The notes under the pieces: generated by a model
Seen by the model: the letters and a program-made list of their open reading frames with translations, nothing else
What the model was told of the DNA's origin: nothing
Database searches by the model: none
Position numbers and translations under genes: made by a program
Source: Streptomyces sp. NBC_00457
GTDB lineage: Bacteria; Actinomycetota; Actinomycetes; Streptomycetales; Streptomycetaceae
Direction of reading: 5' to 3'
NCBI RefSeq assembly: GCF_036014015.1
Contig: NZ_CP107905.1
Coordinates: 1,364,001-1,428,000 of the forward strand
DNA length: 64,000 bases
Shown: positions 32,357 through 62,620 of the stretch, in pieces
Numbering within the stretch: position 1 is the first letter of the stretch
How the letters are laid out: each line of letters starts with the position of its first letter

Positions 32357-32402
32357 CCGTCGGGACGACAGGATTTGAACCTGCGACCCCTTGACCCTCA
32401 GT
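32357..32402 (-). repeat. Truncated tRNA-Pro 3' end, left attachment-site repeat
   Basis: This 46-base segment matches the 3' half of the tRNA-Pro gene at 62575-62620 with a single mismatch, in the same orientation. It covers the T arm, the 3' acceptor strand and the anticodon 3' arm, but no 5' half is present. Such a partial tRNA copy is the expected distal att site of an element inserted at a tRNA 3' end. pSAM2 of Streptomyces is known to use a tRNA-Pro gene this way. Confidence 0.75.
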
Positions 32403-32838
32403 TGGGTGGACCGTGAGCGGCGTGCGACGGGTCGTTGTTCGAGGTCACTGTCCAGCGTACTCAGCCGAGTAAAGGAGTCTGTGTATTCAGGCCTCCGCCG
32501 GGCGGCCTCGTCGCCTCACGCAAGCCCCGTGACGACGATCTCAGCGGCTCTGCGCTGTCCCCTTTCTCTCTCGTACAGGAGGAGCAGCTGCGCTCAAGGC
32601 TCCCGCGGACCGGCCGACGAGGCCCAGCTCCGCCGCGCTGGGCACCGTCGGATCGAGGTCCTTGAAGCGGGGCTCCGCGCCGCATGGGCGAAGGTCACCT
32701 GCTGCTGCGGACGGCGCCGACCGTGCTCGACCGGCTCGCCGGAGCGCTGCCCGTCCGGGCCGCCGACGTCCACCTGAGCGTGAGCCGCCGTGACTCCGCG
32801 ACGCGTGCTGCGGCCCCGGCCAGGCCCGGCCCGGCCGC

Positions 32839-35800
32839 TCAGTCGACGGAGAACTCCTCGAAACCGGCGATCCCGCGGGTGCCGGTCCAGCCGTTGGCGG
32901 CCGTCATGAAGACGCCGATGTCCTGGGTTTCGGCGACGCCGCCTGGTGTGGCGGTGCCGACCTTGGTCCAGGAGACGCCGTCACGGCTGCACTCGCCGGT
33001 GTACGTGCCGCCGGAGCGCGTCAGCCGCAGATGCACCGGGGCGGCGAGGGAACCGGCCAGTTCGATGGAGTCGAACTGGCCGTTGCCGTCGGAGTCCCAG
33101 GACAGCGCACAGCCGTTGGACGGCGTCACCGCCAGATTGACGTAGCCGGCCGGGCCGCCGCCGTTGTCGGACAGGTCGTTGCGGACGATGAGCCCGGCGC
33201 GGGCCCAGCCGCCCGTGGTGTCCTGCGAGGCGACCTGGACCGTTGCGGTCGAGGAGGACCCGAAGGCGGCGGCCTGGTAGACCGTGCCGAACTCGTTGGT
33301 ACCGCCCCAGAGGTCGGCGCCCGCGCCCTCGATGGCGAGCGCGTCCCCGGACTGGCCGAAGACCGCGTCGTTGAAGGAGGCGCTCCGGTAGGGGTCGCCC
33401 ACCCCGGTGCCCGCCATCAGCCGGACGCTCGCCGACGCCAGGCCGCGCGTACCGCTGCTCCGGTAGGACGCGCTCACCGGCACCCGGGAGATCAGCGCGC
33501 CGGTGGCCTGGGTGAGGGTGACGGTGAAGGCCGCCGAGAAGGTCTCCCCCGGGGCGACCGACGCCGCGGTGGTCGTGCCGGCCGGCTCGGCGGTCATCCC
33601 CTCCGGTGCGTCGAGGGACAGCGTCACATCCGTCGCCGGCCCGAAGCCGTTGCGGTTGGTGAACGCCACGGTGACCGTGACCGGGCGGCCCTCGGCCACC
33701 GCGCCCCGGTCGGCGGACGCGGTCAGCGTCACCTGGTCCGGATTGGTGGCCAGGGTGTCCCGTACCTGCCGGGCCAGCTTGTGGATGTCGCCCGACGCCT
33801 TCACCGGGTAGCTGTCGTGCTGGTGCGCCCAGCGGTCCTCCAGCGCGAACCAGTCGATCTCGGCGGGCTGCCGGCCGGCCGCGAGCGCGGCGGACAGCTC
33901 GGCGAAGTACGTCTTCCAGCGCGTGAGGTAGAGGCCGCCGACCAGCCCCGCCCATTCCCGGTTCGCGTAGTCGTGCAGCCCTTCCTCGCTGCTCTCCCGG
34001 CCGCCCCAGGTGGTGATGATCGACCGTGCGTCGTACTCCAGTTGGTCCTTCTCCGCCCTGGTGCCGCCCCAGGACCGGGCGTCGGCCAGCCATCGTCCGA
34101 GCAGGTGCTGCGGGGACGCGGCCAGCACCTTGTCCATCAGCTTCATCCAGCTCAGCCAGGTCTTGGTGAGCCGGCCGAAGCCGGCCCGGTCACCGGCCTC
34201 GTACGCCGCCTTGATCCGGGGCAGCAGTACGCGGCTGCGGTTGGACAGCACCTGACGGGTGACGTCGGCGAGGTCGTAGGCGTAGGCGGAGCTGTCTCGC
34301 AGCCGCGGCGCGACCTGGAGCAGTTCGGTGAGGGCCGCGTCGAAGACCGTGGTGTCGTAGCGGTCGGCCTCCGGGCCCCACGCGGCCGCCTTGTTGGCGC
34401 CCAGACTCGGCCGGGCGCCGAACAGCCCGTCGGGCGCCTCGCTCCACCCGTCCTTGCGGGTCATGTTGTACGCGGTGTCGCGGATCGTCTTCCAGGCGGC
34501 GACGGCGTGCGGGTCCTCGCCTCCGTAGCGGGACACGGCGTACGCGGCGAACCAGTCGTCGAGGTCGATGGTGCCCGGTGTCCACGCCAGGTCGGTGAGG
34601 AGCGCGAGCGCGGGCGCGTTGTTGTCGGCGGCCTCCGGCATCGCCGCGATCCCGGCGAGCGCGCTGCCTTCCTTGTCACGCCACTTGGGGTACTGCTCCA
34701 CCCAGTCCGGGGCGTTGGCACCCATCGGGGTGTGGCCGCCGAAGTTCCAGATGCTGCCGAAGGCGTACGGGGTGCCGCCCCAGTCGCTCTCCCGGTCCGT
34801 GACGGTGGTGTAGCGGTCCGACAGACCGTCCACGATCAGCATCCGGCTCTTGTCGACGCCGTCGAGCAGCGCCTTGGACGGGTTGGACTGCCAGCCCAGG
34901 ATGGCCCAGATCGCGCCCGGGTGGGCCTTCTGGAGCGCCCCTTCGACGGCTGCCGCGGCTTCGTCCACTGGGACGTCACCGGGGTTGCCGCCCTCGTGCA
35001 GCAGATCCATCTTGTACATCGTGCTGTCGCCGAACCGCTCCGACTGGGCCCGGTAGAAGGCGGCGGACACCTCGTCGAAAGCCGTCGTGCGCGGGTCGAG
35101 CCAGTCGGGTCGTTTGAAGGCGCCCCAGTCGCCCTGGGGGACCACGGCCGCGTCCCCGCCGTGCTTGGCGACGAAGTCGTCCGGCACGGTGCCGAAGTAA
35201 CCGGGCAGCACCGGTGTCATGCCCAGTTCGCGCACCCGGTCGGTGATCTTCCGGGCGAGCTCGGCCCGGCGCTCGATGAGCCGCCGGGACACCGGACCGC
35301 CGAACCCCGACATGTTCTGCAGCAGCCACCACGGCTGATGTGCCGGTGCCGGAATCCACGCCCGCATTTCGGCGTCCGAGTAGCCGAACTGCCGGAAGGT
35401 GTCGTAGTAGACGGCGTCGCCGCCGGTGTAGACCAGCACCCTGTTGATGCCGTGCGGCGCGAGCACGTCCAGCTCGCGCTCCCACGCGTCCCAGTCCCGG
35501 TAGGGGCCGGTGTAGCCGTCGTTGGTGTCGTTGAGGGCGAACCGGTGCGGCACGTTCGCCGATCCGGCGATCTCCCCGTCGGGGGCGGGCAGCAGCCTGG
35601 GGAGGTTCAGCTGTTCGCCGTTCCAGGAGATGTCGGCCTTTGCCACCCGCGCGAGATAGGTGTTGAGGCCGGTGAGCAGCACCGCCGGGCTCGTGCCCTC
35701 CACGGTGATCGCCCCGGCCCGGCCGGTGACCTTGAACCGGTCGGCGCTGCCGGCGCCCAGCGCGCGCAGCGTCACCTGCCGGTGGTGGTCGGGCAGCAGG

Positions 35801-35967
35801 CGTCGCAGCGCGACCGATGCGGGGGTCGTGTTGAACGGCTTGCCGGCCTTGTCCGCGGCCCCTGGGGCGGCGTGGGCACCTGGCGGCGGGGTCAGCAGCA
35901 CCACTGAGCCGAACGCGGCCGCTCCGGTCAGCAGGCGTCTGCGGCTGAGGTGTTGGTTGCCTGTCAT
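32839..35967 (-). CDS. GH89 alpha-N-acetylglucosaminidase, secreted
   Basis: A 1042-residue Tat-exported enzyme (signal RRRLLTGAAAFGSVVLL). The N-terminal small domain is followed by the NAGLU-type barrel with RFALNDTNDGYTGPYRDWDA, LVYTGGDAVYYDTFRQFGY and MYKMDLLHEGGNPGDVP, the last probably carrying one catalytic Glu. Family GH89 removes terminal alpha-GlcNAc, found on gastric mucin caps and heparan sulphate. After the helical GH89 C-domain come a NEW3 module (about 740-850) and a C-terminal beta-sandwich (about 855-1042, with DPYRSASFNDAVFGQSG) also present in three operon neighbours. GAGAGG precedes ATG 35967. It is last in the operon. Confidence 0.87.
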   Translation of the reverse strand: MTGNQHLSRRRLLTGAAAFGSVVLLTPPPGAHAAPGAADKAGKPFNTTPASVALRRLLPDHHRQVTLRALGAGSADRFKVTGRAGAITVEGTSPAVLLTGLNTYLARVAKADISWNGEQLNLPRLLPAPDGEIAGSANVPHRFALNDTNDGYTGPYRDWDAWERELDVLAPHGINRVLVYTGGDAVYYDTFRQFGYSDAEMRAWIPAPAHQPWWLLQNMSGFGGPVSRRLIERRAELARKITDRVRELGMTPVLPGYFGTVPDDFVAKHGGDAAVVPQGDWGAFKRPDWLDPRTTAFDEVSAAFYRAQSERFGDSTMYKMDLLHEGGNPGDVPVDEAAAAVEGALQKAHPGAIWAILGWQSNPSKALLDGVDKSRMLIVDGLSDRYTTVTDRESDWGGTPYAFGSIWNFGGHTPMGANAPDWVEQYPKWRDKEGSALAGIAAMPEAADNNAPALALLTDLAWTPGTIDLDDWFAAYAVSRYGGEDPHAVAAWKTIRDTAYNMTRKDGWSEAPDGLFGARPSLGANKAAAWGPEADRYDTTVFDAALTELLQVAPRLRDSSAYAYDLADVTRQVLSNRSRVLLPRIKAAYEAGDRAGFGRLTKTWLSWMKLMDKVLAASPQHLLGRWLADARSWGGTRAEKDQLEYDARSIITTWGGRESSEEGLHDYANREWAGLVGGLYLTRWKTYFAELSAALAAGRQPAEIDWFALEDRWAHQHDSYPVKASGDIHKLARQVRDTLATNPDQVTLTASADRGAVAEGRPVTVTVAFTNRNGFGPATDVTLSLDAPEGMTAEPAGTTTAASVAPGETFSAAFTVTLTQATGALISRVPVSASYRSSGTRGLASASVRLMAGTGVGDPYRSASFNDAVFGQSGDALAIEGAGADLWGGTNEFGTVYQAAAFGSSSTATVQVASQDTTGGWARAGLIVRNDLSDNGGGPAGYVNLAVTPSNGCALSWDSDGNGQFDSIELAGSLAAPVHLRLTRSGGTYTGECSRDGVSWTKVGTATPGGVAETQDIGVFMTAANGWTGTRGIAGFEEFSVD

Positions 35968-35992
35968 GAACGTCCTCTCAAAACTTCTCGGT

Positions 35993-62496: not shown

Positions 62497-62534
62497 CTGC
62501 TGTCACGCCGCTGTCACGTCTCACACGAACACAT

Positions 62535-62568
62535 CCAGCGGGCCTGCCGTTTCCGGCAGACCCGCTGG
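62535..62568 (-). terminator. Terminator of the tRNA-Pro gene
   Basis: On the minus strand a 15-bp stem with one U-G pair closes a GAAA tetraloop, about 10 bases after the tRNA 3' end. The following bases (ATGTGTTCG) are T-containing but not a true run. The stem is one of the strongest in the window. Confidence 0.8.
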
Positions 62569-62574
62569 TGAACA

Positions 62575-62620
62575 CCGTCGGGACGACAGGATTTGAACCT
62601 GCGACCCCTTGACCCCCAGT
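62575..62620 (-). repeat. Right attachment-site repeat within tRNA-Pro
   Basis: The 3' 43 bases of the intact tRNA-Pro gene plus 3 flanking bases, matching 32357-32402 except for one position (62616). The shared block runs from just outside the 3' end into the anticodon loop, a common length for tRNA-integrating elements. Confidence 0.75.

Follow-up and report, generated by a model that had tools for sequence, protein, structure and literature searches.

A probable decayed, cis-mobilizable-type genomic island with a glycan-degradation cargo at a tRNA-Pro(GGG) gene of Streptomyces sp. NBC_00457

Introduction

Actinomycete integrative and conjugative elements (AICEs) of the pSAM2 kind carry an integrase, a replication initiator and TraB. 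Work on Streptomyces agrees with this gene content, and describes accretion at tRNA-Arg, decayed AICEs (DAICEs) and possible later mobilisation in cis (PMC9513070). Where integration and transfer genes have been lost and attL and attR kept, the term cis-mobilizable element (CIME) is used (PMC5704250), and the toxicogenic region TR1 of plant-pathogenic Streptomyces has been presented as a CIME that is mobilised by TR2 (PMC8369830). The locus considered here lies in a 64,000-base stretch (positions 1,364,001-1,428,000) of the one-contig 10.8-Mb genome of Streptomyces sp. NBC_00457 (NZ_CP107905.1). This whole stretch is called the window, and short coordinates are positions within it. The segment at 32359-62620, which holds a cluster of glycan-degradation genes between two copies of a tRNA-derived repeat, is best explained, with a probability of roughly 70%, as a decayed CIME-like genomic island at a tRNA-Pro(GGG) gene.

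The repeat pair and its attachment arms

The two repeat copies, at 32357-32402 and 62575-62620, share 45 of 46 bases in the same orientation (E 1.1e-15 in a search of the whole genome). A single tRNA gene is found in the window by ARAGORN, a tRNA-Pro(ggg) at 62577-62651 on the minus strand; since this sole tRNA overlaps the right repeat, the right copy (the attR core, 62575-62620, minus strand) is the 3′ part of the intact gene, here termed T1, and the left copy (the attL core F1, 32357-32402, minus strand) is an isolated tRNA-Pro 3′ fragment. Both cores are bordered by further DNA of recognizable kinds. On the outer side of attL lies arm A (32269-32358, minus strand), a tRNA-Pro downstream flank that is terminator-like by eye, and on its inner side lies arm E (32403-32522, plus strand; about 100-120 bp). 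At attR, arm X (62491-62576, plus strand; possibly non-coding) is the outer arm with respect to the core.

A circle of the form X-core-E that enters a site of the form A-core-tRNA is expected to produce A-core-E at its left end and X-core-tRNA at its right end, and the window carries both of these products, as attL and attR. The two starting forms are met in other genomes: A-core-tRNA (attB-like) is present in GESEQ-4 (L139), where arm A matches at 80/88 positions, and X-core-E (attP-like) in the three relatives GESEQ-35 (L064), STR69 (L043) and V4I2 (L060), where arm X and core together are 93-97% identical to the window. Attachment-type arms are in this way retained beyond the core repeat, E at attL and X at attR, and the two are joined in three relatives. 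DNA resembling arm A also directly follows an intact tRNA-Pro in five further stretches with falling similarity (L086 77/89, L075 72/88, L094 65/92, L084 64/88, L097 60/88). Site-specific insertion at the tRNA 3′ end is well supported by this sequence comparison of four junctions. The preliminary description of this DNA had proposed the repeat, the assignment of its two copies and the insertion signature, and in all three respects it agrees with the present findings.

Arm E recurs outside the window as the partner of the core. When arm E alone was compared with 150 genomes, the matches listed comprised 12 places in nine genomes (own included, with three of the places), and the core directly precedes it at ten of the 12, the two exceptions being the weakest matches. 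A combined core-and-E pattern was found in 36 stretches beyond the genome's own copies, across several actinomycete genera (Streptomyces, Actinacidiphila, Actinoplanes and related genera, Allokutzneria, Qaidamihabitans and Phytohabitans, together with two metagenome contigs), and none of these 36 stretches, which are 0.6-8 kb long, includes an intact tRNA gene. The spacing from core to E is 62 bases at 36 of 39 sites (own three included), 61 at two and 64 at one, in a search whose pattern admitted only a narrow range; the conserved blocks within arm E include ones that lie outside the search pattern. In plasmid and phage collections, matches to the arm E query were confined to the core and covered at most 31% of it. 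Two other identities for arm E were considered and rejected: a known RNA, as an Rfam search of 32200-32900 gave no match up to E 1, and the end of a neighbouring gene, as across 39 loci no protein family is common to more than six, and none to the right of E to more than three.

These recurring arms also bear on the simplest alternative, that the left fragment is a chance or duplicated piece of tRNA that arose without site-specific recombination. Many Streptomyces have two or three tRNA-Pro(GGG) genes, often close together, so that copies are to be expected; yet the fragments share an end point, have a common arm on one side and variable DNA on the other, and recur in several genera. The recurrence of the arms already contradicts such an origin, which is regarded as extremely improbable.

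An array of seven cores

Genome-wide, seven copies of the core share one orientation and are spread over 1.396-1.749 Mb (three further rows of the same search are 25-base matches at other places). Three of the seven are intact tRNA-Pro genes, namely T1 in the window, T2 at about 1,653,991 and T3 at about 1,749,280, and four are fragments, namely F1 in the window, F2 at 1,514,242, F3 at about 1,736,671 and F4 at 1,741,001. Arm E adjoins F1, F2 and F3 on the right, and F4 is without it. The segment is thus one decayed island within a 353-kb accretion zone (1,396,357-1,749,323), and the repeat pair of the preliminary description is real as to its two copies but belongs to this larger set.

A tRNA-Pro pattern was found in 106 of 121 sampled genomes (own included), many of which have two or three copies in one sense. 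As multiple copies are common in the sample, the fragments are regarded as foreign and the tRNA genes as native, and the idea that the three tRNA-Pro copies are duplications brought by elements was rejected on the same ground. The distance from T1 to T3 is 323 kb in NBC_00457, and its equivalent is 20-134 kb in at least 19 genomes with three copies on one contig (a hand count among the matches listed). The interval between F4 and T3 holds two Mutator-family transposases and an 847-bp stretch that is 99.9% identical to another about 7 kb to the left of F2 (L011:15001-19915, L012 and L009:6328-7174).

With seven cores and several decayed elements inside the same 353 kb, the left fragment might belong to another lost element of the array and have no link to the right end, the cluster having come by ordinary recombination; the position of the cluster away from tRNA-Pro in relatives would be in keeping with this. 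Such an origin is nevertheless distinctly unlikely, because X and E, the inner arms of the segment, are joined through one core in three relatives, as those of a single attP would be.

Integrases in and around the array

A whole-genome profile search with PF00589 gave ten matches, two of them under the cut-off, and none lies between 1,396,357 and 1,426,620, so that the earlier statement that no integrase remains holds for the segment. The 15 called genes of the segment are glycosidase, GDSL, importer or repressor genes or have no Pfam match (short frames were examined in part), and no integrase, replication initiator or TraB is among them. Elsewhere in the array, a tyrosine recombinase is encoded in a 433-codon open frame 0.9 kb to the left of T2 (1,651,794-1,653,095; L010:11794-13095), and an integrase fragment lies just to the left of T3. 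The element of the T2 recombinase may extend 140 kb to the left, as far as F2 (arm B-core-E).

Integrase homologues are found within about 0.3 kb to the left of the core-E unit in four of the 36 stretches, many of which are short on that side: L039 of S. specialis, L048 and L053 of Actinoplanes, and L052 of S. rugosispiralis. The integrases thus sit on the side of the core opposite to arm E, from which we infer for the parent element the order E, cargo, integrase, X and core. In GESEQ-35 (L118), an integrase-bearing open frame extends across arm X and enters the core; over its C-terminal 30 residues it matches window 62504-62593 at 87%, and 24 of these codons fall within arm X. The PF00589 search in 14 relatives returned too many integrases for places to be assigned. 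No complete parent element with matching arms was identified; in GESEQ-35 the integrase frame abuts arm X.

The tRNA-Pro locus in relatives

To the right of T1 lies a gene for a major facilitator superfamily (MFS) transporter (62695-63987, minus strand), which is the right neighbour of tRNA-Pro in many Streptomyces. Among the best 30 tRNA-MFS loci (own included), the tRNA is in the stretch for 24 and not for six. The left 1.5 kb of those 24 mostly differs, with more than 200 bp common to three pairs only; these are the best-scoring loci rather than a random sample, and two of them have less than 1.5 kb.

The closest comparison is with GESEQ-4, in which seven window proteins from 13.4-24.8 kb recur at 96-100% amino acid identity, with 98% identity across 403 residues for the MFS protein. 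Between these outer flanks GESEQ-4 has 41.6 kb of other DNA, in the order A-core-E, about 30 kb, a second core-E (with a one-base core deletion), about 11 kb, and A-core-tRNA. At the thresholds applied, this tRNA locus gave no match to any glycan-cluster protein and a partial match to one other window protein (5656-6741). Three integrase queries against the GESEQ-4 interior matched arm tails only, no family search having been made on it. The preliminary description had suggested a search of relatives for an empty site; GESEQ-4 has the same outer flanks without the cluster, and the site there is occupied. Where other genomes have an A-like arm next to the tRNA, the stretches compared gave no match to the window's left-flank proteins.

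In GESEQ-4 (L049), no more than 3 bp separate the counterparts of window 23433-24768 and 32269-32484, so that the 7.5-kb stretch 24769-32268, which in the window lies between a metallophosphatase gene and arm A, is missing there. Pfam matches in this stretch include endonuclease NS, SDR, ADH and TetR, and its last three genes have a GC content at third codon positions (GC3) of 0.82-0.84, below most of the window. The SUKH gene named in the preliminary description was not recovered: the small gene to the left of F1, at 31823-32224, has no Pfam match at E 0.01. Left-flank genes at 11480-12376 and 21274-24763 have counterparts on the right-hand side of core-E in both GESEQ-35 (L064) and S. ureilyticus (L068), and the left flank may accordingly represent an earlier layer of such an island.

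The glycan-degradation cluster and its distribution

The cluster block spans 32835-62242, as judged by the start and stop points of its homology with the V4I2 cluster. Eleven genes on the minus strand come first, assigned by Pfam unless stated: a GH89-type alpha-N-acetylglucosaminidase (NAGLU) with a NEW3 domain (32839-35967); an unnamed protein with only sub-threshold CARDB/Ig-like matches (35993-36889); a second unnamed protein with weak C-terminal similarity to DUF1349 (36886-37839); a GH29-type alpha-L-fucosidase (37836-39299); a GDSL-family protein with a NEW3 domain (39296-41449) and a second GDSL-family protein (41459-42679); a GH31 glycosidase (42690-44657); two GH35-type beta-galactosidases with NPCBM (44693-48442 and 48439-52083); a GH123 glycosidase (52080-53954); and a GH31 glycosidase with NEW3 and a DUF1349-like end (54078-57104). 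An ABC sugar importer follows on the plus strand, with an extracellular solute-binding protein (58116-59366) and two permeases (59514-60341 and 60434-61240), and then a DeoR-family repressor on the minus strand (61336-62124), for which the best NCBIfam model is AgaR at 187.9 bits (cut-off 260); its frame is open to 62469 and its homology with relatives spans 262 amino acids. The location of glycosidases, importer and repressor between the repeats is as first described. Several of the N-termini resemble export signals by eye. Repeats of about 550 bp with 71-78% identity occur in three cluster genes (36928-37486, 39335-39890 and 54102-54647).

The co-location of glycosidases, importer and sugar-type regulator defines a carbohydrate-utilisation cluster with an ABC importer, in a block common to relatives. 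Judged by its protein families, this cargo probably frees and imports sugars from glycans that contain GalNAc, GlcNAc, Gal and Fuc.

GH123 homologues were found in 16 of 392 genomes (own included) and in five of ten arm-E relatives. V4I2 has counterparts of at least 85% identity for 14 of the 15 window cluster genes; for the first GDSL gene the match covers 400 of 696 residues. For the GH35 gene at 44693-48442 the best matches in six relatives, at 48-49%, are to the neighbouring GH35, so this gene was either added here or lost in the relatives. The second GDSL gene finds no close counterpart in GESEQ-4 (69%), nor does the first GH31 gene in G140, G390 and S. flaveus (56-57%); the G163 stretch covers the cluster in part only.

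The block stands at different places in different strains. The left cluster flanks of six relatives include no pair with more than 250 bp in common, and the right flanks are partly common to GESEQ-4, S. flaveus, G140 and G390. Among the nine genomes in which the distance from cluster to tRNA was compared (not all of those with the gene), the cluster is at least 0.69 Mb from the tRNA-MFS locus in the five where one contig carries both (G140, G141, G267, G276 and G390), separated from the core array by over 7 Mb in V4I2, and on a different contig from the tRNA-MFS locus or core array in GESEQ-4, G191 and G306. The DNA that flanks the GESEQ-4 cluster is contiguous in NBC_00457, where left homology runs to 9,188,944 and right homology from 9,188,956, near the other end of the assembly; GESEQ-4 holds 27.9 kb there, the cluster and about 3 kb. 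The two close strains thus have the block at separate loci, and neither has it where the other does. In G268 (C1) the GH123 gene is present twice, at 549,271 and 10,989,736, in opposite sense near both ends, like terminal inverted repeats.

The outer genes of the cluster are closest to those of V4I2, at 94% identity for GH89 and 94-96% for importer and DeoR repressor, against 81% and 78-85% for GESEQ-4; most inner genes are alike in V4I2 and GESEQ-4. Since the genes to the left of F1 are GESEQ-4-like (96-100%), this suggests horizontal acquisition of the outer cluster genes rather than a move within the genome. The proposal that the cluster moves as a unit is supported by the block's different loci in strains; its carriage by the element with the flanking att sites is conjectural, given the absence of a tRNA beside the cluster in six relatives and the spacers and IS110-like remnant described below.

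Proposed origin of the island

We propose that an element with attP = X-core-E recombined with the tRNA 3′ end at attB = A-core-tRNA. The element's core would have restored the tRNA, with A-core-E (attL) and X-core-tRNA (attR) as the left and right junctions, and the integrase and any transfer genes would then have been lost, so that the segment now bears a cluster of presumptively secreted glycosidases, importer and repressor whose outer genes are closest to those of V4I2. An integrase like that at T2 or in GESEQ-35 may have carried out the recombination, the cluster may have arrived with the element or been captured by it, and the segment could still be mobilised. The near-same gene set at other loci in relatives gives it the look of a transferable unit of a known general kind.

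Several findings weigh against this proposal. No genome was found in which both window flanks border a strictly empty site, that of GESEQ-4 being filled by other DNA, and the arm A match is weak (68-73%) in three of six genomes. X-core-E was met in chromosomal contigs only, and tandem elements rather than circles may account for it. The recombinase-domain match of the GESEQ-35 frame stops near residue 207-211, before the arm X tail, so that arm X represents either the end of an integrase gene or a non-coding arm just past it; that frame is incomplete at its start, and four other arm-X places, among the matches listed, match by the tail only. No conjugation, replication or excisionase genes were seen among the called genes of the segment. 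The GC content is 69.1% inside and 69.4% in the left 24.8 kb, with GC3 likewise equal, so that composition, which the preliminary description had put forward as a check, was rejected as a sign of foreign origin. No tRNA gene was found in 11 cluster flanks (14-24 kb) of six relatives. Lastly, homology of the cluster with V4I2 ends before either arm. A 312-bp spacer (32523-32834), with no Pfam match in the frames tried and with a part (32606-32722) that resembles DNA at the V4I2, G095 and G306 loci, separates it from arm E; a probable remnant of an IS110-family transposase (62251-62493, plus strand; PF02371 E 0.0025, 18.6 bits, cut-off 21.3; no NCBIfam match) sits between the repressor gene and arm X.

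Spacer and remnant raise the possibility that the cluster dropped into an older element. It would then have been inserted later between A-core-E and X-core-tRNA of a decayed element, by IS110-linked transposition or homologous recombination, and the att sites would bound it by position only, a scenario that overlaps the proposal above as to how the element obtained its cargo. The absence of an adjoining tRNA in six relatives is consistent with it, as is GESEQ-4, which has the same left flank and A-core-E with other contents. Were the left junction an old one shared with GESEQ-4, the outer arm E there would be orthologous to that of F1; yet the F1 arm matches it at 95/124 positions, against 112/122 for S. 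flaveus, 109/121 for GESEQ-35 and 108/122 for the inner GESEQ-4 copy, and arm A matches GESEQ-4 at 81/88 but also S. flaveus at 80/88. These small numbers lean towards separate integrations, and later capture is held to be a tangible possibility that falls somewhat short of an even chance.

Returning to the decayed CIME-like island, a broader form of the proposal is that a large family of tRNA-Pro(GGG) islands in actinomycetes, without integrases and with interchangeable cargo, has core and E together as its docking end, in which case an att module of about 250 bp would be kept for mobility and metabolic clusters would be exchanged between the ends, driven by scattered integrases like the frame-intact one at T2; this is speculative and rather unlikely. 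The locus exemplifies a whole sugar-chain-use system that acts as a replaceable unit in Streptomyces, and two close strains allow an occupied and a cluster-free site to be set side by side. It singles out tRNA-Pro(GGG) as a site at which large metabolic gene sets accumulate, and it provides in arm E a sequence tag by which such islands may be located in other actinomycetes.

Comparison with known systems

The segment has the structural features of a CIME, as far as these can be known from sequence alone: it keeps attL and attR at a tRNA 3′ end, is without integrase or transfer genes, and lies in an accretion zone with related elements (PMC5704250). It differs in that its cargo is found in relatives without an adjoining tRNA, and in that no intact parent with the same arms was identified. 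TR1 is likewise a non-autonomous metabolic cargo between att sites in Streptomyces, but it is located at an aviX1 site with the integrative and conjugative element TR2 adjacent (PMC8369830), whereas the segment is at a tRNA, and no intact neighbour element was seen at T1. With the AICEs and DAICEs at tRNA-Arg it shares serial insertion at one tRNA, direct repeats and decayed remnants. Those elements are 11.9-36.3 kb long and recognised by traB, with functional ones in the central region (PMC9513070), whereas no traB was seen in the segment, which lies 1.4 Mb from one assembly end; by gene content it is not an AICE. Mycobacteriophage Giles and relatives have a 45-base match to the core (93%; NC_009993:25136-25180), but this is the core only, without arm E, and in a phage rather than a metabolic island. 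Neither the glycan cluster nor the tRNA-Pro array is described in the titles and abstracts of the open literature matches listed. The mechanism is of a known kind; what sets this locus apart is the unusual clarity of the comparative evidence, together with the large size of its metabolic cargo.

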